From Pirellulales bacterium (GTDB lineage Bacteria > Planctomycetota > Planctomycetia > Pirellulales > DATAWG01), in the NCBI GenBank assembly GCA_035939775.1, contig DASZFO010000309.1, positions 1 to 64,000 on the forward strand: 64,000 nt of DNA. The letters run 5' to 3'. The notes below the pieces were generated by a model. It searched no databases. It was not told the origin of the DNA and saw only the letters and a list, made by a program, of their open reading frames with translations. The position numbers and the translations under genes are program-made. Positions 45,157 to 58,854 of the stretch are shown one piece after another (the first letter of the stretch is position 1; every line of letters begins with the position of its first letter).

Positions 45157-46488
45157 ATGGCACCGACGAAGACCCCGCCGCTTCCGATGCGACCTGGCGA
45201 GAAAGCCCAGAGTTCCGATTTCGAGGCCCTGAAGCGCCGCATCCACACCAAGCTCGTCGATAAGCTCGATCTGACTCGAGTCGGCGAGTTGGAAGGGGAT
45301 GTGTTGCGGCGCGAAATCCGTCTGGTCGTCGAGCACCTTTGCGACACCGAAGATACGTTGCTCAACCGCGGCGAACGCGAGCGGCTGATCGAAGAAGTGC
45401 TGGACGAAACATTTGGTCTCGGACCGCTCGAATTCCTACTCAAGGATCCGACGATCAGCGACATTCTGATCAACGGCCCAAAGAACATCTACGTCGAACG
45501 TCGCGGCAAGTTGGAAAGGACAACCGTCCAGTTCCGCGACAACAACCACTTGATGCAGATCATCGATCGGATCGTCTCGAAAGTGGGACGGCGCGTGGAC
45601 GAAGTCTGCCCGATGGTCGATGCCCGCTTAACGGACGGTTCGCGTGTGAACGCGATCATTCCGCCCCTGGCGCTGGACGGGGCTTGCGTTTCGATACGCC
45701 GGTTCGGCTCCAATCCGCTCAAGTTGGAAGACCTGTTGAATTACAAGGCGTTTACGCCTGAGATGGTGATGCTCTTGGAAGGCGCGATCAAGGCCCGGTT
45801 GAATATCGTGATCTCCGGTGGCACAGGTTCCGGCAAGACGACGCTGCTGAATACCTTGTCGAGTTTCATTCCGAATACGGACCGAATCGTGACCATCGAA
45901 GACGCGGCCGAATTGCAATTGCAGCAAGACCACGTCGTGCGTCTCGAAACCCGTCCCCCGAACATCGAAGGCAAAGGGGCCATCAACGCGACCGATCTTG
46001 TGAGGAACGCACTGCGCATGCGACCCGAGCGCGTGATTATTGGCGAATGCCGCGGGGGAGAAACGCTCGACATGCTCCAGGCCATGAACACGGGCCATGC
46101 GGGCTCGATGACCACGCTCCACGCCAACACTCCGCGGGACGCGATTGCCCGTATCGAGACGATGATTACGATGTCTGGCTTCGAACTACCGCTCAGGGCA
46201 ATGCGGCAACAGATCGCCAGCGCCGTCGATTTGATCGTTCAGGCGAATCGCTTGCAAGGCGGTCCTCGTAAGATTACCCACATCACCGAAGTGGTTGGCA
46301 TGGAGCAAGACACGATCGTCATGCAAGACATTTACCACTACGCCGTGGAAGGGATCAACGAATCGGGCCGGGCGGTCGGGCGGTTTGAAGCAACGGGCGT
46401 TAGGCCCTCGTTCATGGATCGCCTTGAAGCCGCCGGCGTGCGTCTGCCCGCCAGCGCTTTCCGGCAACGCACCATGTTGGTGGATTAG
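45157..46488 (+). CDS. cpaF: TadA/CpaF secretion ATPase
   Basis: A 443-residue VirB11/GspE-family hexameric ATPase that powers Flp pilus extension (and, with TadBC, retraction). Walker A ISGGTGSGKTTLLNTLSSF near residue 215-230, Asp box IVTIEDAAELQL, His box TGHAGSMTTLHANTPRDAI and Walker B-like RPERVIIGECRGGE are all intact. The N-terminal domain (LLNRGERERLIEEVLDETFG onward) is standard for CpaF. ATG at 45157 (MAPTKTPPLPMRPG). Confidence 0.96.
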   Translation: MAPTKTPPLPMRPGEKAQSSDFEALKRRIHTKLVDKLDLTRVGELEGDVLRREIRLVVEHLCDTEDTLLNRGERERLIEEVLDETFGLGPLEFLLKDPTISDILINGPKNIYVERRGKLERTTVQFRDNNHLMQIIDRIVSKVGRRVDEVCPMVDARLTDGSRVNAIIPPLALDGACVSIRRFGSNPLKLEDLLNYKAFTPEMVMLLEGAIKARLNIVISGGTGSGKTTLLNTLSSFIPNTDRIVTIEDAAELQLQQDHVVRLETRPPNIEGKGAINATDLVRNALRMRPERVIIGECRGGETLDMLQAMNTGHAGSMTTLHANTPRDAIARIETMITMSGFELPLRAMRQQIASAVDLIVQANRLQGGPRKITHITEVVGMEQDTIVMQDIYHYAVEGINESGRAVGRFEATGVRPSFMDRLEAAGVRLPASAFRQRTMLVD

Positions 46489-46600
46489 TGTAAGTCGTTC
46501 CAATTCCGCTACCTGAATTGCAATACAAAACAGCCGACATCCGGCCGCTGCCGTATTCTTCGTTCTCCAATTTCCCAACCTCCGACTCCAGACCCTGAAC

Positions 46601-47572
46601 ATGAGTCCTTTGCTGATTTCTGTCGCGGTGTTCATGGCGGTGGCCGCCATGGTCGGCGTCGTGGCGTTTTTATTGCGCGGGGGGGCGGAAACGCGAGTTG
46701 AAGACCGGTTGGCCCAATTGACGGGCGCGAAGGTCTCCTCCGCCGCCAGGGACAACCTGCTTAAGGACAGCGGGGTCTTGGTGCAGCCGCTCGATGCCAC
46801 GCAGGGAATCGTCGCCGTATTCTTGGCTCAATTCCGCGGCCTGAGTTTGTGGTTTCAACAGGCCGACACGACGATCGCTCCCTCGCGATTCTTCGCAATA
46901 TGCGGCGTGCTGGCCGTGGCCGCGATGGCGGCGGGCATTGCCACCGCAATACACGTCGCGCTTGTGCCGCTGGTCGGGTTGTTCGCCGGCATGCTGCCCA
47001 TCCTTTGGCTTATGTTCCGACGCAAGCGGCGCTTCAAGCGGTTTGCCAAGCAATTGCCCGACGCGCTGGAGCTGATTTCGCGTGCTTTGCGGGCGGGGCA
47101 CAGTCTAGCCTCCGGTTTCAATCTGGTGGCCGAGGAAATGGATGCCCCCATCGGCACCGAATTTCGCAAGGCGTTTGAAGAACAAAACCTCGGCATTCCG
47201 CTCGACGAAGCCCTCGACGGCATGACCGAACGAATGCCGAACCTCGATTTGAGATTCTTCGCCACGGCTGTCATTTTGCAGCGGCAAACTGGCGGCGATC
47301 TGGCGGAAATCCTCGACAAGATCGGCCATTTGGTCCGGGAGCGATTTCAGATTTGGGGCCAGGTCCAGGCACTCACCGGCGAAGGCCGGCTGTCGGGAGT
47401 CGTGCTCTTGGCTTTGCCGCCCGTGCTGTTCGTCGCGGTGTGGCGGTTGAATCCGGATTACGTCCTCCCGCTGTTCACCGATCCTTTAGGCAAGAAGATG
47501 CTCATCGCCGCGGTCGTGATGCAGATTCTCGGCGCGCTAGTGATTCGCAAAATCGTCAACATCAGGGTCTAA
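46601..47572 (+). CDS. tadB: TadB inner-membrane platform protein
   Basis: A 323-residue GspF/T2SSF-domain protein. One N-terminal helix (LLISVAVFMAVAAMVGVVAF), two central helices (about 95-140), the F domain (PDALELISRALRAGHSLASG, EEQNLGIPLDEALDGMTERM) and two C-terminal helices. TadB forms the inner-membrane platform with TadC beside the TadA ATPase. It starts 112 bases after cpaF and is separated from tadC by three bases. Confidence 0.93.
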   Translation: MSPLLISVAVFMAVAAMVGVVAFLLRGGAETRVEDRLAQLTGAKVSSAARDNLLKDSGVLVQPLDATQGIVAVFLAQFRGLSLWFQQADTTIAPSRFFAICGVLAVAAMAAGIATAIHVALVPLVGLFAGMLPILWLMFRRKRRFKRFAKQLPDALELISRALRAGHSLASGFNLVAEEMDAPIGTEFRKAFEEQNLGIPLDEALDGMTERMPNLDLRFFATAVILQRQTGGDLAEILDKIGHLVRERFQIWGQVQALTGEGRLSGVVLLALPPVLFVAVWRLNPDYVLPLFTDPLGKKMLIAAVVMQILGALVIRKIVNIRV

Positions 47573-47575
47573 GCC

Positions 47576-48553
47576 GTGTCTTCCACATCGGTCGATTTTT
47601 TCAGCTTCGCCAGGCTGATGCCGCTGGCCATTTTCGGCGTCGTCGCGCTAGCGGCTTGGGTCGCGCTCGAAATGTTCGGCGGGCGGAAGTCCCGCGCGAC
47701 CGAGCGCCTCGACGAGCTGCGCAATCCCAACGCCCGCCGCCGCGAAGAAGCTGCCAAGGGTACGAAGGGAGACGCGATGGCCAAGGTTTTCGAGAGGGCC
47801 ACGCCCGCCTTCGCAAAACCGCTTCAGCCCAAGAATGAATTCGAGGCGAACAAGCTGAAGGCCAAGCTCTCGGCGGCGGGCTTCCGCGGCAATTCCGCCT
47901 CAAGCGTCTTCCTGGGATTCAAGTTCATCGGCCTGATCGTCGGCTTGACCGTCGTCGGACCCACGATGTTGGCCGTGTCGGGCGCTACTCAGAAATCGCT
48001 GATTTACACGATCTTCGGCGCGGCGCTGATGTTCTATCTGCCCGACATTGTCGTCGGATTCATCGCCAGCAATCGAAAGAAGAGTATTTTCTTTTCGCTA
48101 CCCGACGTCCTCGATCTGATGGTCGTCTGCGTGGAGGCTGGACTGGGCCTCGATCAAGCGATGCGCAAATGCAGCGAGGAGATGAAGAAGACGGCCCGCA
48201 TCATCTCGGAAGAATTCGGCCTCTCGAATTTTCAGTTGCAGATGGGCCGCCAGCGTTCCGAGGTGCTCCAAGAGTTGGGGGTTCGCACCGGCGTGGACGA
48301 TCTGCGCAGCCTGGCGGCCATTTTGATCCAAGCCGACAAGTTTGGCTCGAGCGTTGCCCAAGCGTTGCGCGTGCAGAGCGATTCGATGCGGACCCGCCGC
48401 CGCCAGCTTGCCGAGGAAAAGGCCGCCAAAACGGCCGTCAAGCTGATCTTTCCACTTGTGATTTTCATTTTCCCGGGGATTTTCGTCGTGCTTGTCGGGC
48501 CGGCCGCCATCACGATGATCAACCAGATGTTCCCGGCGATGGGCGGCCATTAG
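47576..48553 (+). CDS. tadC: TadC inner-membrane platform protein
   Basis: A 325-residue GspF-domain paralogue of TadB. N-terminal helix (LMPLAIFGVVALAAWVALEM), linker, two helices near 105-165, F domain (LPDVLDLMVVCVEAGLGLDQ, AAILIQADKFGSSVAQALRV) and C-terminal helices (VKLIFPLVIFIFPGIFVVLV). GTG at 47576 lies three bases after the tadB stop, indicating coupled translation. Confidence 0.93.
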   Translation: MSSTSVDFFSFARLMPLAIFGVVALAAWVALEMFGGRKSRATERLDELRNPNARRREEAAKGTKGDAMAKVFERATPAFAKPLQPKNEFEANKLKAKLSAAGFRGNSASSVFLGFKFIGLIVGLTVVGPTMLAVSGATQKSLIYTIFGAALMFYLPDIVVGFIASNRKKSIFFSLPDVLDLMVVCVEAGLGLDQAMRKCSEEMKKTARIISEEFGLSNFQLQMGRQRSEVLQELGVRTGVDDLRSLAAILIQADKFGSSVAQALRVQSDSMRTRRRQLAEEKAAKTAVKLIFPLVIFIFPGIFVVLVGPAAITMINQMFPAMGGH

Positions 48554-50849: not shown

Positions 50850-53800
50850 CTACGGCGCGCCTCGGATGGCCTCCAACTGGGCCTTGATTGCGGCGAATCG
50901 CTTGGGCGTCGCCTCGCCGCCGTCCAGCTTCGGATGAAACTGCAGCACCGAGTTGAGCACCTTCTCTCCCGTCTGCGCTTTGGCGATTGCAGCCGCTCTG
51001 TCGGCCGCTTGTAGACGCTTGGCCTGCGACAGCAAGCAGAACACCGTATTGTAGACTGCGTCGTAATAGCTCTGCTGCAAGCTCCGTTGGCGGTCGCTGA
51101 GCGTGCGTCCGCTCGGATCGGCGGGCGGCACGTAACGCTCGAGCCGGCGGCGAATCTCCGTCCAACTACCGATCGCGTCGTCGAACTTTGACGGGTCCTT
51201 CGCGGCCCAGTCCTGATAGATTTTCGCCCGTTCGACGAGCGGCTCGAGCGCGTCGGGGAATTCGGCGACGAGCTTATCCGCGACCTCCTTGGCCTCCTGA
51301 TACTTTTCACGCTTGCGGAGCAAGCCGATCTCTTTGGCGCGCACCGCATTCAGGAGCAAAGCGTTCTGCTTGTCCTTCATGAAGTCCGGATCGGCATTGG
51401 CCTTTTCTAAAACATTGCGATACTGTTGCTCGGCCTCGTTGGTCATTTCGATGTCGCCGAACAGATTGCCGATATAGACCATCGTCTGCGGCGTAAGCTG
51501 CTGCCGCCCGGCCAGTTTCGTCAACAAATCGCCGAGCATGTTCTTGACAGAACTGAATTTGGCGCGAATCTTCTCGGCCTCCGCGGGCGGGGTCGAGTCG
51601 GGCAGATTGTTGAGCGTATCTTGAATCGTGCGGCGCTCGCCGTCGAGCCGCTGCACGAAGCTCACGAGCGCCGCGTTGATATCGGTCTTGTCTGGGCCGA
51701 TGTCGATCAAGACGGCGCCGGCCTGTCCCGCCTTCTTGAAATCATTCAACCCCAGGTCGGCCCGCAGGGCGACGCTGAACATTTCGAGCATCGTCTTGTC
51801 GAGTTCCATCGGCTTGGCGGCACTGATCGTTGCCACGAATGGATCGACCACATCACTGGCTTCTTTGAATTCCTTGGCGTCGAGATGTATTTGCGCAAGC
51901 ACCAGTTGAGTCTTCAACAGTCCGTCGGGATATGGATCGCCTGGTCTCAGGTTTTTCTTGGCCGCAGCGACGCTCTCGGTGAAATCGCGCACGGCCTTTT
52001 GACGGTGCTCTTCCATCGCCTTGGTGTTGCGGTCGGCTTCTTTCTTGTTTCGTTCAAGCAGATACAGGGTGTCGTGGATTCGGCCCCGCATGTCGAGCGC
52101 CTCGGCGTATTTGTCGGACGTTGGTTCGATCGATTCGTAGACCTGAAGCGCTTCAACGTATTTGCCGTCCATCGCATTGATTCGCGCCAAGGACATGCGG
52201 GCTTTATCCGCTTCACCTGTGCCGGGATAGGTAGTGAGCGTGTAATCAACCGCGTCTTTTAGCCGCTTGAGCGCGGCTTCGCGGTCAGCGGCAGCGACCT
52301 TCTCGGCCGCTTTGTCTCTGGCGGCGGCGGCGGATTTCTCCTGTTCCACCGTCAGCCGATGGAGCTGCGCCGCGCAATCGAGCGCAAACTCCATCGCCCT
52401 CTCGGCCGTAAGTGTTTTCTTGTAATCGCGGGCCACCTTTTCGGCGCCGTCAATCCAAGCCGTCCATTGCTGCTTGGTGATGTTTCCCTTTTCGCTTGCG
52501 GCTCTGTATTTCTCCGAGATCGGCTGCATGGCGCAACTGGCAAGCGCCTCTCGGATTCGCGACAATTGGCTCGCGTCTTTTTTCGCGCCTTGCTGCTCTT
52601 CGATTTCCTGAGCTTTATTGAGCCACTTGGTGGCTTCGTCCCATTGCTTCTTTTCCATCGCGCGGCCGGCTTCGTCCATCGCCTCGAAGACCGATTGCGG
52701 ACTGTCCGCCGCGCCGGGCCGGAGGCGATTGCGCAGATCGATGAATTCGCGCTGGAACTCACTGGGGATGCCCGCCATCTCGCCGGCGATCTTGAGCGCC
52801 TCGCGGGTCAGCTTGTCTTTCTCCGACGGCGTGCTTTCCCTTTCGGCGGCGGCGGCGACGTGCTCGGCCAAGTCGAGCGCCGCGGCCTGGTATCCCCATT
52901 CCGTCTTCAAGTTCTTCTTGTATTCCTCGTTCTCGATGAATTCGCGGGATTGAGCCAGATACTCCTTTACCCGTCTTGGATTTCTAGCCAAGAGCAGCAG
53001 GGAAAAATGCTTGGTGCGAGCGAGGATGTCGTCGATCTCGGTCTTGACGTATATCTTGCTGTCTCTACCGGTTTCATTCGGAAAAATGGATTTGGCTTCC
53101 CTGCTGAGATCTTGGAAGTTTTCCAGGACCTCGTCGTAGATCGCTTTGGCGTCATCGAGTCCGTCCAATTCTTCATCCACCTTTCCGTTCCACGAATGAA
53201 CGTAGAGCGCAAGCTGTCCTTCCGGGGAATTGGGGTCTTTGTCGCGATATTGTTGGAAAATGTCGTCGAGCGCTTTGGCCGCCGCATTGAGCGAGTTTCT
53301 CCGTTTGCCATCCTCCGCCTTCGCCGTGTACGTCTGGGCAATGTCGTAGTCGATGAGCGATAGCGGCGCCCGCGCTTGAACCAGATTGGTTTCGAGCCGC
53401 CGACGGGCGTCTAATAGATCGCGCTGCTTTTTTGTCAGGTTTGCGCCCCGCGGCGGCGGTCCCATTTGGGTCAAGCGGTCGCTCCAGTTCTTGACAACGG
53501 ATTCCAAGAGCGGACGCGCTTGCTCATACGTCTTGCGCGCCGCGGCAAGCGCAGCGCTCTTTTCGGCGCCGTCCTTCATTCTGCGCCCGGCCACAAGCGC
53601 CTCGTTCGCCTGATCGACAACCATGGTGGCGCTGATCAACTGCGCCTGCAGCGCCCCCGGGTGATTGGGTTTGTCTTTAGCGAACTGGTTGAGATGCCTT
53701 TGCGCCTCGTCGATCATCCGGGCGCGCTCGGCAATGTCGCCGATAGACCGTGCCTCATCAAGCAGGCTCTTCGCCAATTCGAGATCCCAAACATCGACGA

Positions 53801-53981
53801 CCGCAGCCGGTGCGTCGGGGCTCGTTCGCAGCGTTTTGAGATAGTCGACGGCCGTGTCGCCGTAGTGACGTTCTTGCAGTGCATGGAGGAAGGCCAGGTC
53901 GCGATCTTCGGCAAGACCGCGGCTCGGCATCGCAATCGCCAGGAAAACGACAAACCACCACGAGCAGCGATTGACGAGCAT
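50850..53981 (-). CDS. Large exported TPR/coiled-coil protein of the ExbBD operon
   Basis: A 1043-residue protein with a signal peptide (MLVNRCSWWFVVFLAIAMPS, cleavage near GLA). Almost the whole mature part is predicted alpha-helical by composition, with many TPR-like units such as YLKTLRTSPDAPAAVV, LDDIFQQYRDKDPNSPEGQL, YVEALQVYESIEPTSDKYAE and YQEAKEVADKLVAEFPDALE, and a Lys/Glu-rich coiled-coil stretch around residues 500-640. There is no enzyme motif. The ATG at 53981 lies just after the upstream gene's TAG (seven bases between). It is the last gene of the six-gene operon, probably a periplasmic scaffold or substrate-binding partner for the TonB-like protein before it. Confidence 0.7.
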   Translation of the reverse strand: MLVNRCSWWFVVFLAIAMPSRGLAEDRDLAFLHALQERHYGDTAVDYLKTLRTSPDAPAAVVDVWDLELAKSLLDEARSIGDIAERARMIDEAQRHLNQFAKDKPNHPGALQAQLISATMVVDQANEALVAGRRMKDGAEKSAALAAARKTYEQARPLLESVVKNWSDRLTQMGPPPRGANLTKKQRDLLDARRRLETNLVQARAPLSLIDYDIAQTYTAKAEDGKRRNSLNAAAKALDDIFQQYRDKDPNSPEGQLALYVHSWNGKVDEELDGLDDAKAIYDEVLENFQDLSREAKSIFPNETGRDSKIYVKTEIDDILARTKHFSLLLLARNPRRVKEYLAQSREFIENEEYKKNLKTEWGYQAAALDLAEHVAAAAERESTPSEKDKLTREALKIAGEMAGIPSEFQREFIDLRNRLRPGAADSPQSVFEAMDEAGRAMEKKQWDEATKWLNKAQEIEEQQGAKKDASQLSRIREALASCAMQPISEKYRAASEKGNITKQQWTAWIDGAEKVARDYKKTLTAERAMEFALDCAAQLHRLTVEQEKSAAAARDKAAEKVAAADREAALKRLKDAVDYTLTTYPGTGEADKARMSLARINAMDGKYVEALQVYESIEPTSDKYAEALDMRGRIHDTLYLLERNKKEADRNTKAMEEHRQKAVRDFTESVAAAKKNLRPGDPYPDGLLKTQLVLAQIHLDAKEFKEASDVVDPFVATISAAKPMELDKTMLEMFSVALRADLGLNDFKKAGQAGAVLIDIGPDKTDINAALVSFVQRLDGERRTIQDTLNNLPDSTPPAEAEKIRAKFSSVKNMLGDLLTKLAGRQQLTPQTMVYIGNLFGDIEMTNEAEQQYRNVLEKANADPDFMKDKQNALLLNAVRAKEIGLLRKREKYQEAKEVADKLVAEFPDALEPLVERAKIYQDWAAKDPSKFDDAIGSWTEIRRRLERYVPPADPSGRTLSDRQRSLQQSYYDAVYNTVFCLLSQAKRLQAADRAAAIAKAQTGEKVLNSVLQFHPKLDGGEATPKRFAAIKAQLEAIRGAP

Positions 53982-53988
53982 AAACCTA

Positions 53989-55743
53989 CTAATTGGGGTC
54001 CGACGCCTTTCCTTCCGCCTTCTTTTTCTTTTCGACGTCACCCTTCGCCCCAGCTCCCTTCATCGCTCCGTCCCCCTTCGTGCCCATCTCGATTGGACCG
54101 GCGGGCTTGATTTCTTCCGGCTTGTCGAGCTTGTAGAGGGGCAGGTAGCGATAGTAGACCTCGAGCGTCAGGCAGGCCAGGCTGGTCATCATGATTCGCC
54201 CTCCGACGGGGCCCCAGGCGTCGCGAACCGGTTTGTTCGGGTCCCAGCTACCGGTGGCGCAGCCTTCGCGGGCCTGGCTCGTGACCAGGATCGTCCGCAT
54301 TTTACGGTTCCAGGCGTCCCAGTCCTTGTCGGCCATATTGTGCATGACTTGAGTGGCATAGTACCAGTAATAAATGTTTCGGGCGCCTTGGTCATCCGGT
54401 TGGTTGGCCATCAGATACTGAACACCCCCCACGATCACCGGGTCCTGCCGGCCGGCGTGGAGATATTGGCTGCACAATAGGCCGACGGACGTCATCGACG
54501 GAATCGGCTCTGAGTCGGGCTGATAGGAGAACTCTCCGCCTTTGGCTCCCTTGGTTCCTCCGGCCGCCCCCTTGCTCACCGACATCAGCCAGCGCTTGGT
54601 GCCGTCGAGGACTGCCGGATTGACGTTCAAACCCGACATTTGAGCGCTCTTCAGCGCCATAAGCTGCCAACCGACGACCGAGGTGTCGCCGTCGTCGCCC
54701 GGATGATAGCGCCAGCCGCCGGTCCTAGAGTTTTGGGCCGCTTGAATAAAATTGATCGCCAACTGGGCCGCCCGACCGACGCTCTTGTCGTGGCTCATTC
54801 CGTAATCTTCGCAGAGCGCGATTGCCGCCAACCCGTGCGAATACATCTGCTGCTCGGCTCCGGCCGAAAGATCGCCGTCCGGCTTCTGATGCTGAACCAG
54901 CCAATAGACGCCGAGCGAAATGGTCTTTTGGAACGGACCAGCGCTCATGTGCGTTTGGCCGGCGGCCAGGAAGGGAAGGAGACCCATCGCCGTGGCGCCG
55001 CTGAGCGATTCTTGTTCGCCTGGACCGGTGCAGGTTTTGTCCTTGCACAACTTGGGATATTCTTTGAGGCTCCAATTCCCTTGGGGCATTTGATGATGGG
55101 CGAGCCAATAGAGAGCGGCCGCCACCGCGCGCTCGGTGTCCTTGGTGCCGCCATAGCGGCCCAGCAATGCTTTCCGAGATCCGCTGCCGCGGCCGCCGAA
55201 ACCGCTCCCCTCGCCGCCACTGCCAGATATGCTGCCGACGCCGCTGCCGGGGCCGATCCCAGTCAAGCCGTTGATTTTAGCGCCAGAGCCAGGTGCCTTC
55301 ACTTCAAAACCGCCAGTGCTGCCGAGATCGGGGGCCGCCGTGTCGGTCTTGACGCCGCCGCCGCGTTTTTCGAACGTCGCGCTATCATCATTGTATTCGG
55401 CCGTCTGAGCCGGCGTGCTCGGCTCCATCTGCATCAGCGTATCGGTGCTGAGCGTCTTGGGATCAACTTGCGGTTCGCCCAGTTCGTATGGCTTGAGCGG
55501 CGCATCGACCATCGCCGTCTGCTCGGCTTCCTCGAAGGTCGGGATTTCGTCGTTCGGTTTCTGCCCGGCGAATTTGCCGAGCAACAACAGCGACGCCAGC
55601 GCGACCATGTGCACCGTGAAGCTCACGGCCCACCAGGGCGCCTGCGTGCGAATCCATTCCGAGAGCATTCCGAGCACGGAATCGGAATCGTCGTGAAAGA
55701 CCTCATCGGTGGTCTCGACGGCGCGTGCGTCCTCGCCTGCCAT
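53989..55743 (-). CDS. TonB-like anchor fused to a squalene-cyclase/prenyltransferase repeat domain
   Basis: 584 residues. A short cytoplasmic N-terminus is followed by one membrane helix with WWAVSFTVHMVALASLLLLG (about residues 37-56). Inside it S-x3-H-x6-L matches the TonB/TolA Ser-His-Leu contact face for ExbB/ExbD (S16, H20, L27 in E. coli TonB); the fourth position is Gly instead of Ser. Then comes a Pro/Gly-rich periplasmic linker (to about 190). After it lies an alpha-alpha toroid repeat domain (AALYWLAHHQMPQGNWSL, GVYWLVQHQKPDGDL, AINFIQAAQNSRTGGWRYHP, VGWQLMALKSAQMSG), without a cyclase DXDD motif, and a Lys-rich tail. ATG at 55743 is preferred over 55860. Inferred: an energy-coupled protein driven by the ExbB/ExbD pair in the same operon. 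Confidence 0.75.
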   Translation of the reverse strand: MAGEDARAVETTDEVFHDDSDSVLGMLSEWIRTQAPWWAVSFTVHMVALASLLLLGKFAGQKPNDEIPTFEEAEQTAMVDAPLKPYELGEPQVDPKTLSTDTLMQMEPSTPAQTAEYNDDSATFEKRGGGVKTDTAAPDLGSTGGFEVKAPGSGAKINGLTGIGPGSGVGSISGSGGEGSGFGGRGSGSRKALLGRYGGTKDTERAVAAALYWLAHHQMPQGNWSLKEYPKLCKDKTCTGPGEQESLSGATAMGLLPFLAAGQTHMSAGPFQKTISLGVYWLVQHQKPDGDLSAGAEQQMYSHGLAAIALCEDYGMSHDKSVGRAAQLAINFIQAAQNSRTGGWRYHPGDDGDTSVVGWQLMALKSAQMSGLNVNPAVLDGTKRWLMSVSKGAAGGTKGAKGGEFSYQPDSEPIPSMTSVGLLCSQYLHAGRQDPVIVGGVQYLMANQPDDQGARNIYYWYYATQVMHNMADKDWDAWNRKMRTILVTSQAREGCATGSWDPNKPVRDAWGPVGGRIMMTSLACLTLEVYYRYLPLYKLDKPEEIKPAGPIEMGTKGDGAMKGAGAKGDVEKKKKAEGKASDPN

Positions 55744-55856
55744 TTCGCTGCTCCAAGTTCCCGACGAGCGGAAAAAGATGTTCCAGTCGCCAGAATAACG
55801 ACTTTTGAGAGTGGGCCTCGCCTCAATCGCATTATCCGTTGCAGGGCCATGCGCGG

Positions 55857-56939
55857 TCAAGCATTATTGGGCCCTCCGACTTCATCGAGCCATTCCTCGA
55901 CCGAAGTGCCGGGCGGCGGGGGCAAATCGGTTGCCAACTCTGCCACGCTACGTCGGCGCTTCCCGAGGAATATGAATCCCAGCCAACTGACCAGGATCGC
56001 CGCCGCACCGCCGCCAAACAATATCAGCCACGGCAATTCGGACTCTTCCACCACGACTCCCGGCCGCGGGGCCTCCCAAGCGACTCGGCCGATGAACGAC
56101 GGAGCGAGCTGCACTCGCGAATCGGGGGGCGCTTTGGCCGGAATGTAGCCTTGGTTGCGAAAGAAATATCCGACGAATCGCACGTCCTCGCGAACGTTCG
56201 GCCCGATCGGCAAGCCCGCCGGCGGATCGTAAACGACGAAGTGTAGGAACCGCCCCCGGGATTCGTCAGTCGTTCCCCAGACCTCGTAAAGCGTCGCCGG
56301 CGGACGCGGCGCGTCGTCGTCCTCGTCGCGAAACGCCAGCTTCACGTCGAACTTGATGACCTCGCGAACGTGCACGTCAAAGGCGAAGATTTCGCCCGGC
56401 TGCCGGAATTCCTGCGGGGACGTGACAAATTGACCATAAGTCGGATTGCGCTCTGCCGCGCGGGCTGAAAGCCGCTGGTACGGCTGATCGATGACCCAGC
56501 GCACGAGACGGCGGTACGCCGACATTTCCTCCGGCTGGATCTGCACCGAACCGTCGGCAACGAAGTCGAAATCCTCCGCAGCGCCGCTGAGTTCCGCTTC
56601 GTCCTCGTCGGTCGGGCCGGTGGCAATGGGAATCTTTTTCGGCTGCGGCTCGCCTTCGGTCGTCTTCGCGGGCCTATTTTCTGCTCGGCCATCGACGGGA
56701 ATGGATGGAGTTGGCGTGACGGGCATTTGATCTGGCCGCGATTTGTCGCTGCCGCCTTCTTGGCCGACGACCTGATTTGCTTGCCCCGGTTTGCTCACGA
56801 GCCATTGCCATGTGCCCGGGTTGCTCGCCGTCTTGATCATCATGCCGAGCACGACCAGCATGCAGATCATGGTCATGAGCCGGCCGAATTCCGCCCCGCG
56901 GAAGAGCCGCCTGGGGCGCTGGCGCTCGATGCGTGGCAC
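55857..56939 (-). CDS. Two-helix membrane protein of the ExbBD operon, unknown
   Basis: 360 residues: an N-terminal helix (FGRLMTMICMLVVLGMMI, about residues 18-36), an acidic/Pro-rich linker, a folded extracytoplasmic region (about 130-300, EEMSAYRRLVRWVIDQPYQR, IFAFDVHVREVIKFDVKLAF, FLHFVVYDPPAGLPIGP) and a second helix near 305-330 (WLILFGGGAAAILVSWLGFI) with a short cytoplasmic tail. I recognise no family. Its start lies one base after the stop of the second exbD (56941/56939), so translation is coupled. Role presumably in the same envelope complex. Confidence 0.65.
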   Translation of the reverse strand: MPRIERQRPRRLFRGAEFGRLMTMICMLVVLGMMIKTASNPGTWQWLVSKPGQANQVVGQEGGSDKSRPDQMPVTPTPSIPVDGRAENRPAKTTEGEPQPKKIPIATGPTDEDEAELSGAAEDFDFVADGSVQIQPEEMSAYRRLVRWVIDQPYQRLSARAAERNPTYGQFVTSPQEFRQPGEIFAFDVHVREVIKFDVKLAFRDEDDDAPRPPATLYEVWGTTDESRGRFLHFVVYDPPAGLPIGPNVREDVRFVGYFFRNQGYIPAKAPPDSRVQLAPSFIGRVAWEAPRPGVVVEESELPWLILFGGGAAAILVSWLGFIFLGKRRRSVAELATDLPPPPGTSVEEWLDEVGGPNNA

Positions 56940-56940
56940 G

Positions 56941-57450
56941 CTAGGGATTTCCTTCCTCGACGAGGCTCAGCTTCGAGAGTTTGTTTTTCGGATCGCCGCC
57001 GACCGATTGATGCGTGCAGACCCCCAGGACTCGCATCAGCTCCTCGTACTTCAGCTTGGGGTCGACTCCGATGATCACTTGATCGAACGGGCTAGTCGGA
57101 CTCCCGAGTTTGCTCTTCAGTTCGGCATCGAGCATGGCCAGACTAGGATCGACCGTCACATTCTGCTGCACGACAGTGATCTGCCCCAGCATTCCATTCT
57201 CGGTGGCGGTCAAGTGGATCGGGAGCGTGTTGAATCCGGCCACGGGATTCTTGTCGTTCGGGTTCTCGCCCGCCACCTGTTTGGCGGCTTCGGTGGCCAG
57301 CGGCTGGGGCGGCGGCATGCGGAGCTGGATTTGCCCTTCAACCGGCGCCGGCTTGAACGTCAAGATGAAGAACGTCAGGATCTGAAACGCCATATCGAGC
57401 ATGGCGGCCAGATTGAGTTCGACTCCTTCGGGCGATTTGCGTCTTGCCAT
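56941..57450 (-). CDS. exbD: ExbD/TolR-family protein, second copy
   Basis: 169 residues with one N-terminal helix LNLAAMLDMAFQILTFFILT, containing the proton-channel Asp of ExbD/TolR, then a periplasmic domain of about 130 residues (QVIIGVDPKLKYEELMRVLG). It forms the dimeric part of the ExbB5-ExbD2 proton motor. Two different ExbD genes in one operon suggest a heterodimer or alternative partners. Starts three bases after the preceding exbD. Confidence 0.88.
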   Translation of the reverse strand: MARRKSPEGVELNLAAMLDMAFQILTFFILTFKPAPVEGQIQLRMPPPQPLATEAAKQVAGENPNDKNPVAGFNTLPIHLTATENGMLGQITVVQQNVTVDPSLAMLDAELKSKLGSPTSPFDQVIIGVDPKLKYEELMRVLGVCTHQSVGGDPKNKLSKLSLVEEGNP

Positions 57451-57453
57451 TGC

Positions 57454-57930
57454 TCAAGTTCCCTTGGCCTTGTTCATCGCGCGAAAAGCGAAACTGCGAA
57501 AGCCATTATCCTGGCAGGCTTTGATCACCCGATTCACCTTGCTAAACGGCGTGGATCGGTCGGCCCGGATGATGACCGTCGTCGGCAACTCATCCTTTTC
57601 GGGATCGAAATCGGAGTGCGCCCGCCGCTCGGCGAGTTTGTATATTTCGGCCTGGGTCGAGATATAACCGGGAATGCTCTCGTCGGCATAAGGATGACCG
57701 TAGACCGTGAATTGTCCCTTGTTGTTCAGGTTCAACATGAAGAACGACCGCTTGTCGTCTTTGTCGATCGGCCGGGCCGAGCCGACGATCGGCAAATCCA
57801 TCGCCTTATCCATCAGATTGGCCTTGAAGTTGATCACGAGCATGAAAAACGTGATCAACTGGAAGACCATGTCCAGGATCGGCGTCAGATTCGGTTCGGC
57901 CCTGGCCTTATTCGATAGCGATGCGGTCAT
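57454..57930 (-). CDS. exbD: ExbD/TolR-family protein, first copy
   Basis: 158 residues. N-terminal helix PNLTPILDMVFQLITFFMLV carries the conserved Asp, followed by a periplasmic domain with TTVIIRADRSTPFSKVNRVI, typical of the ExbD C-terminal fold. ATG at 57930 lies nine bases after the exbB stop. Confidence 0.9.
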   Translation of the reverse strand: MTASLSNKARAEPNLTPILDMVFQLITFFMLVINFKANLMDKAMDLPIVGSARPIDKDDKRSFFMLNLNNKGQFTVYGHPYADESIPGYISTQAEIYKLAERRAHSDFDPEKDELPTTVIIRADRSTPFSKVNRVIKACQDNGFRSFAFRAMNKAKGT

Positions 57931-57939
57931 GTCGCCCTC

Positions 57940-58854
57940 TCAAGGCCGGGCGGCCTTCGCAGCGGCCACTTGGGGCGCGGGACCCGAACCGGCCCCCTTG
58001 CCGCGAGCCGCATGGGCAAAGTGGCGCAGGAATTGATCCGCGCGCACCATCGTGGTCACGGAAATCGTCGACACCCGATTGCGGAACAACGCATAAAAGT
58101 AAATCGCCGGCACCGAAAGGAACACGCCCTCGAAGGTGATTACCAAGGCCTGTGAAATGCCTTTGGCCACCAGCGTCGGATCGAGCGAATCGCCGCCGCG
58201 GGCAATCGCGCCGAAGCTTGAAATCATCCCCATCAACGTTCCCAACAGCCCGATCATCGGCCCCAGCGTTCCCAGCACGGCCAACATGCTGATCTTCTTC
58301 TCCATCTCCGTGGTCACGGATTCGCCGACCTTTTCCATCGCCTCGCGCGCCTCGGCCAAGCCGTTGGGCAGCTCGCCGATGCCGGTCGCTAGCGCGGTGC
58401 TGAAAAACGAGTTATCTTCTTTCACCACGCCGAAGATGCTCTTGAAATCGCGCTGGTCGAGTAGCGCCTCGCAACGGGCGATGATCTCGGGAGGCATCGC
58501 GATGATCGGCCGCATTTCCAGGAACAACCGGCTGACCGTGGCGACGAAATAAATCGAGAGGCCCAAAATGAATAAGCCGATCCACCCCGAAGATTCAACA
58601 ATCCACGAAATCTTCGATTGCTGGTCCTGTTTCGGCTTGGCGGCTTCCTTGGCCGCGTCGGGAGCGGGCGCCGCGGCGGCGTCAGGCGCGGCCTTTGCGC
58701 CGGCTTTGTCGTCCTTGGCCTCCTGGGCATACGTGCAGCGCGGCGCGGAGACCGCCAGGGCCAGAATAGTCCCCGCCAGAAGCAGTATCCGCGACCAAGC
58801 CTTACCGTCGCCGCGCCTCGTACCGGCCACGCTGTGCCGTTCTCGATTCGACAT
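57940..58854 (-). CDS. exbB: ExbB/TolQ/MotA-type proton channel with cleavable N-terminus
   Basis: 304 residues. N-terminal signal-like segment (ILLLAGTILALAVSAP, then AxA) and an Ala/Pro/Lys-rich linker precede the three ExbB helices: SGWIGLFILGLSIYFVATVS, ISMLAVLGTLGPMIGLLGTL and KGISQALVITFEGVFLSVPA. The pore Thr of helices two and three (GLLGT, ALVIT) are present. The Glu that in E. coli ExbB precedes ALVAT (E176) reads Gln, with a Glu seven residues later. First gene of the six-gene operon ending at 50850. Confidence 0.9.
   Translation of the reverse strand: MSNRERHSVAGTRRGDGKAWSRILLLAGTILALAVSAPRCTYAQEAKDDKAGAKAAPDAAAAPAPDAAKEAAKPKQDQQSKISWIVESSGWIGLFILGLSIYFVATVSRLFLEMRPIIAMPPEIIARCEALLDQRDFKSIFGVVKEDNSFFSTALATGIGELPNGLAEAREAMEKVGESVTTEMEKKISMLAVLGTLGPMIGLLGTLMGMISSFGAIARGGDSLDPTLVAKGISQALVITFEGVFLSVPAIYFYALFRNRVSTISVTTMVRADQFLRHFAHAARGKGAGSGPAPQVAAAKAARP

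Follow-up and report, generated by a model that had tools for sequence, protein, structure and literature searches.

A planctomycete ExbB-ExbD-ExbD operon encoding a candidate TonB/TolA-like transducer with an alpha-alpha toroid head

The 64,000-nucleotide stretch of Pirellulales DNA analyzed here (contig DASZFO010000309.1 of assembly GCA_035939775.1; hereafter the window) carries a six-gene operon on its minus strand at positions 50850-58854. The gene order is exbB - exbD - exbD - a gene for a protein with two transmembrane (TM) helices and an OB-like barrel - a gene for a protein with an alpha-alpha toroid - a gene for an exported TPR protein. The host assembly comprises 6.4 Mb in 384 contigs and is 96% complete, and the closest toroid genes among named records nearly all carry the label Planctomycetota. 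All six genes listed in a preliminary description of this DNA are present; five have Pfam matches, and the two-TM protein has none. The tight spacing described there holds for the gaps of 9, 3 and 1 nucleotides (nt) that follow one another from exbB and for the 7 nt before the ATG of the TPR gene, but not between the OB and toroid genes, which are ~113 nt apart. The TPR protein has the described length of 1043 residues given the ATG start at 53981; an alternative GTG start at 54041 would yield 1063 residues.

TonB and TolA share the helix motif S-x3-H-x6-L-x3-S (SHLS), and the structure from E. coli shows TonB residues Ser16 and His20 touching Ser34 and Trp38 of the first TM helix (TM1) of ExbB; the final Ser of the motif is less conserved in TonB (PMC12215075). 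The 584-residue toroid protein of the window has three of the four contact residues (S, H and L) in its N-terminal membrane helix, at the spacing of +4 and +11 that the preliminary description had given. The AlphaFold2 (AF2) model consists of this helix, a disordered stretch of ~118 residues and the toroid (boundaries in Table 1). The squalene-cyclase-type head proposed earlier was recovered as a match to SQHop_cyclase_C and as a modeled toroid fold, and a Pfam scan of the protein gave no match to the TonB C-terminal domain (PF03544). Judging from sequence and model, the protein is predicted to follow the helix-linker-head plan known from TonB and TolA but to carry a different head. The hydrophobic part of the helix is preceded by ~36 mostly polar and acidic residues. 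Because of this tail, the Ser and His within the helix and the lack of an A-x-A site downstream, the helix is not likely to be a cleaved signal peptide, a possibility that the preliminary description had raised against its own reading.

Foldseek searches of the PDB with the window toroid returned AprG, short squalene-hopene cyclases, GH76 and MmpH (E ~1e-5 to 1e-4, target TM-score ~0.6), and a profile search with hmmsearch matched the toroid to the squalene-hopene cyclase 1gsz (1.6e-15). Most toroids conserve a C-x(2-4)-C pair, a possible disulfide or metal site, located here at residues ~233-242 (window ~55016-55047). An identity as a terpene or lipid cyclase was rejected: the DxDD motif of class II terpene cyclases is not conserved, occurring in 8 of 67 toroid proteins at scattered positions, and a lipid-cyclase role is therefore unlikely. 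Another enzymatic role is suggested by the 33 invariant columns in the 67 aligned proteins, many of which lie outside the QW repeats, by the sugar-acting enzymes among the best structural neighbors (GH76, MmpH and AprG), by weak Pec_lyase matches in some members and by the existence of soluble toroids without a TM helix. The toroid would then be a periplasmic enzyme, such as a glycan hydrolase or lyase, tethered via the SHLS helix and positioned or gated by the motor, with no pulling on the outer membrane. We consider this unlikely, given that the helix and the linker length fit force transducers, that the family matches known enzymes only weakly and that DxDD is not conserved.

We assessed the conservation of the helix motif in loci gathered through toroid similarity, with the helix ignored; these were retrieved with an alignment query, a single-protein query having retrieved none. 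The S-x3-H pattern lies within a TM helix in 95 of the 112 toroid proteins for which such a helix is predicted, versus 30 of 599 other membrane proteins from the same loci (85% vs 5%; Fisher p = 1e-72, uncorrected for relatedness), and the longer S-x3-H-x6-[LIM] pattern in 85/112 versus 7/599. Relaxed to [SA]-x3-[HN], the motif is found in all 31 motor-linked toroids, 76 of 81 orphan toroids and 165 of the 599 background proteins. Loss of the pattern outside exbBD operons had been named beforehand as a refuting condition; the outcome favored the earlier reading, S-x3-H being as frequent in orphan (69/81) as in motor-linked (26/31) toroids. Toroids without S-x3-H mostly have A-x3-H or S-x3-N, and the motif is absent from short toroids that have no TM helix (L229-L231). 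In a further alignment (A2; 67 toroid rows) Ser is present in 67/67 and His in 62/67, values that are partly circular because the rows were preselected by S-x3-[HN].

The majority of toroid genes do not adjoin exbBD, as would be expected if the resemblance were due to chance, with the helix as a plain anchor or a cleaved signal peptide and no relation between toroid protein and motor. This explanation is largely contradicted by the motif rate relative to background, by the conservation of the operon and by an acidic N-terminal tail and internal His and Ser that are unlike a signal peptide, and we regard it as highly improbable.

The window ExbB has a signal-peptide-like N terminus and an Ala/Lys-rich extension, and in alignment it keeps the TM1 Ser, both pore Thr residues and the TM3 Pro. 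Across 29 aligned planctomycete ExbB proteins, these positions are conserved in 27/29 (TM1 Ser), 28/29 and 27/29 (pore Thr) and 26/29 (TM3 Pro). The two ExbD paralogues are distinct from each other and each retains the membrane Asp. With this Asp in both ExbDs and the two pore threonines in ExbB, the motor looks functional by sequence.

The conservation strongly supports a predicted energy coupling of the toroid proteins, by analogy with TonB and TolA. What strengthens the earlier suggestion of coupling is the combination of a conserved S-x3-H helix, the helix-linker-head layout and a co-occurring ExbB-ExbD-ExbD motor with proton-path residues and the TM1 Ser. The operon probably encodes a Ton/Tol-kind envelope machine that is driven by the proton motive force and fitted with a new head. 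Taken as a whole, the interpretation in the preliminary description is partly supported; it was right for the most part but narrower than the present findings, which extend to a family found throughout the phylum.

Table 1. Features of the operon in the window (aa, amino acids; pLDDT, predicted local distance difference test)
Feature	Position	Strand	Details
exbB/tolQ-like gene	57940..58854	-	304 aa; Pfam MotA_ExbB 1.9e-25
exbD/tolR-like gene 1	57454..57930	-	158 aa; membrane Asp20; Pfam ExbD 5.8e-18; alignment
exbD/tolR-like gene 2	56941..57450	-	169 aa; membrane Asp19; Pfam ExbD 8.7e-11; alignment
Two-TM protein with periplasmic OB-like barrel	55857..56939	-	360 aa; GTG start
Toroid transducer gene (candidate)	53989..55743	-	584 aa; ATG at 55743, GGAG box upstream; Pfam SQHop_cyclase_C 3.1e-8
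Toroid protein membrane helix	55567..55677	-	residues 23-59; AF2 helix and conservation
Helix contact residues S41 / H45 / L52	55621-55623 / 55609-55611 / 55588-55590	-	alignment
Toroid protein disordered linker	55210..55563	-	residues 61-178; pLDDT <50; second half Gly-rich
Alpha-alpha toroid head	54139..55209	-	residues 179-535; QW-type repeats; pLDDT mostly >90
Exported TPR protein	50850..53981 (from ATG)	-	1043 aa; Pfam TPR_14 2e-5 on open reading frame 50850-54041

Seventeen loci besides the window repeat the gene order in full or in large part, and this order is kept across families. The exbB-exbD-exbD-OB-toroid order occurs in 12 loci when the window is counted (L052, L058, L061, L063, L064 and L069-L072 among them), plus L185; it recurs in genomes G001, G002, G030, G047 and G052 and in the named records L069-L072, L108 and L114, again plus L185. 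Additional exbD copies occur in this operon, one in L058 and two in L052, and in most conserved operons a TPR homologue directly follows the toroid gene. In a toroid tree built with a quick method, 10 of the 12 operon toroids fall into one group, along with orphan duplicates from the same genomes (support 94, not starred); clade statements based on this tree are tentative.

The two-helix protein encoded between exbD and the toroid gene was called unknown in the preliminary description. An AF2 model of moderate quality has both TM helices (residues 15-39 and 302-336) and places a five-stranded barrel between them (185-288; predicted template-modeling score 0.50, barrel pLDDT ~90). Foldseek gave weak matches to the OB-fold proteins SSB and MCM, so that the protein looks like an OB-fold protein in the model. 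It accompanies the motor even where no toroid gene adjoins: the exbB-exbD-exbD-OB cassette stands without one in L182, L184, L186, L187 and L191, from four genomes, and each of these holds S-x3-H toroids elsewhere (G149, L215; G335, L210/L220; G295, L207/L225; G339, L204/L224). This suggests that the OB protein is tied to the motor, with the toroid as the exchangeable part.

All four ExbD genes of the window's own genome lie within three loci (the window, C336 and C104), each of which adjoins an S-x3-H toroid, and no Pfam-detectable ExbD was found in the genome beyond these loci. The upstream half of the C104 locus, with the TPR gene and the start of exbB, appears to sit on C362, and a gene pair at C104:909-2016 is MotA/MotB by sequence. 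A 439-aa MotA/ExbB-like protein with a long polar tail (G000:C251; L043:1108-2427) has a ZorA-like layout by eye. Searches of the genome for the TonB_C domain (PF03544) and for TonB-dependent receptors (PF00593) gave no match, the same searches being positive in control genomes. With the genome 96% complete, the absence of both is likely rather than proven. Toroid matches were found in 58 of 58 genomes searched within the order, at 2-18 each, and in 130 of 147 genomes sampled across Planctomycetota (~88%; E <= 1e-50), a count that includes non-transducers, as short TM-less toroids also occur. Elsewhere in the window, tadA/tadB/tadC-like genes of a Tad (type IVb) pilus were recognized by eye at 45157-48553.

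A second class of toroid proteins adjoins a TPR - ExbB - ExbD gene set. These proteins are larger: the third of their three TM helices bears S-x3-H or a variant of it, the toroid lies towards the C terminus and, in many members, a PD40 propeller sits between the first and second TM helices. Nine such reading frames (L065, L074, L080, L087, L102, L106, L119, L129 and L144) are 1100-1590 aa long with a TolB-like PD40 propeller; they have at least three TM helices, carry S-x3-H in the last one before the toroid and mostly adjoin TPR-ExbB-ExbD. A DUF4159 protein of 867 aa with an N-terminal toroid-like region (L079:367-2967) was seen near an S-x3-H toroid gene, at a distance of a few kb.

Because a single polypeptide combines the propeller with a TolA-like helix and has TolQ-, TolR- and TPR-like proteins as neighbors, the second class recalls Tol-Pal, as a resemblance by analogy and not as membership; this set is possibly a Tol-like system of the phylum. 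The match between TPR - ExbB - ExbD - (PD40 propeller, SxxxH helix and toroid) and CpoB-TolQ-TolR-TolB/TolA, along with the near-universal presence of toroids in the sampled phylum, would suit a replacement of Tol-Pal in which toroid systems hold the outer membrane attached during division. This would be a special case of a Ton/Tol-kind machine, with the ligand named. However, the window operon has neither a propeller gene nor a Pal/OmpA gene, and the genome encodes its OmpA-domain proteins on other contigs, in one case next to MotA; such a role seems rather improbable to us.

Transducers with a vWA head were described in 2025: in these SHLS-vWA proteins a linker joins an SHLS helix to a vWA domain, their genes in the PVC group often adjoin a TPR gene, a tolQ-like gene and two tolR-like genes, and gliding has been proposed for these systems (PMC12204202). 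One planctomycete SHLS-vWA transducer gene (L063:15494-16558) lies ~5.5 kb from a toroid gene, and the next open reading frame has TPR matches. The helix of this transducer, PAWLISIVVHVGLLVTLGF, very closely resembles those of toroid proteins, for example PAWLISLVFHLILLTLLALF in L100. Five further loci (L232-L236) have the order vWA - TPR (a homologue of the window TPR protein) - second TPR - ExbB - ExbD - ExbD, several with divergent OB two-TM genes. Assignment of their vWA proteins to the published SHLS-vWA class was rejected, as the helices have no S-x3-H, and a sigma-factor-like gene adjoins in the loci read.

The proposed gliding of the sibling vWA systems, the vWA proteins that flank the homologous TPR-ExbB-ExbD-ExbD set in L232-L236, and the combination of one ExbB with two different ExbDs and a long TPR partner would all suit a gliding or adhesion-type trans-envelope motor, like Agl/Glt of Myxococcus, which has TPR and adhesion-like proteins besides one TolQ-like and two TolR-like subunits, with the toroid as a moving cargo adaptor. 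No other gliding genes were seen in the window operon, and the numerous orphan toroids (2-18 matches per genome) are more like many cargo-specific TonBs. We therefore consider a gliding motor very unlikely.

For the Ton/Tol-kind machine that we favor, the following arrangement is proposed. The inner-membrane motor would consist of ExbB, probably in five copies, and one copy of each ExbD paralogue, probably as a heterodimer. By analogy with TonB and TolA structures, the toroid protein would dock on the outside of ExbB via its S-x3-H-x6-L helix, and proton flow through ExbB-ExbD would move the docked helix. The disordered linker would cross the periplasm, and the toroid may grip a glycan or protein partner in the outer envelope, taking the place of the small C-terminal domain of TonB and TolA. 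The OB-fold two-TM protein could serve as an accessory of the motor, and the long TPR protein probably acts in the periplasm as a partner or scaffold. Toroid proteins encoded elsewhere would share motors in trans, and the many toroid copies might serve different partners.

Several observations weigh against this proposal. The window protein lacks the Ser at +15 that would complete SHLS and has Gly56 instead, and among the operon toroids L108 and L114 have Asn for His and L185 has Ala for Ser. The position of E. coli ExbB Trp38, which TonB His20 contacts, is occupied by V, L or I in the aligned planctomycete ExbBs. A D-box-like strand after the helix, scored purely as a sequence pattern of alternating hydrophobic and hydrophilic residues, was observed in 25 of 67 toroid proteins versus 28 expected from shuffles. 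Finally, the ~113 nt before the toroid gene may mean that it has its own promoter.

The window's own genome has ExbBD motors, but searches revealed neither a TonB_C domain nor a TonB-dependent receptor in it, and the toroid family offers a concrete, testable candidate for the driven protein. Across most Planctomycetota, ExbBD-type motors could drive toroid-headed transducers of operon-linked, propeller-fused and orphan kinds, a distinct class replacing TonB/TolA or working alongside them, with many heads per cell sharing a small number of motors, as though every head were dedicated to a cargo of its own; we give this broader proposal about an even chance. The family is large and apparently previously undescribed: 'squalene' does not occur in PMC12204202, where toroid heads are not described, and full-text searches, which covered few subscription papers and no preprints, found no description of ExbD-linked toroid proteins in planctomycetes. 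The data suggest that the helix-linker chassis of TonB and TolA is modular and has received no fewer than three unrelated heads (the TonB/TolA C-terminal domain, vWA and the toroid), and proteins named terpene cyclases from the toroid alone may perhaps be envelope machines and not lipid enzymes.

Compared with known systems, the window motor resembles the ExbBD/TolQR 5:2 motor in the membrane Asp of its ExbDs and the pore Thr residues of its ExbB. The AglRQS gliding motor has one TolQ-like and two TolR-like subunits. The window operon encodes the same combination but no recognizable Glt proteins. With squalene-hopene cyclases and other toroid enzymes the protein shares the toroid fold and QW-type repeats; it differs from the cyclases in that DxDD is not conserved and in having a single toroid, predicted to be periplasmic and tethered to a motor-docking helix. 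Tol-Pal has in common with it the SHLS helix, the TolQ/TolR-like motor and a TPR partner, as well as, in the sister class, a PD40 propeller within the same polypeptide, whereas the window operon has no TolA C-terminal domain, TolB or Pal gene. TonB systems likewise have an S-x3-H-x6-L helix, a periplasm-spanning linker, an exbB/exbD operon and several transducers per genome; here there are two ExbD paralogues and extra OB and TPR proteins, and the genome searches detected neither the TonB C-terminal domain nor a TonB-dependent receptor. More broadly, the toroid proteins share with SHLS force transducers (the superclass of TonB, TolA and the vWA proteins) the SHLS helix, a disordered linker and a globular, predicted periplasmic head; operon copies adjoin an ExbB/ExbD motor, whereas orphan toroids do not adjoin motor genes but have motors in the same genomes. 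The closest published relative is the SHLS-vWA class, with its TM helix bearing SHLS, a disordered linker, a globular periplasmic head other than the TonB/TolA C-terminal domain, and TPR, tolQ-like and paired tolR-like genes nearby; the toroid family is a sister case in which an alpha-alpha toroid takes the place of the vWA head.

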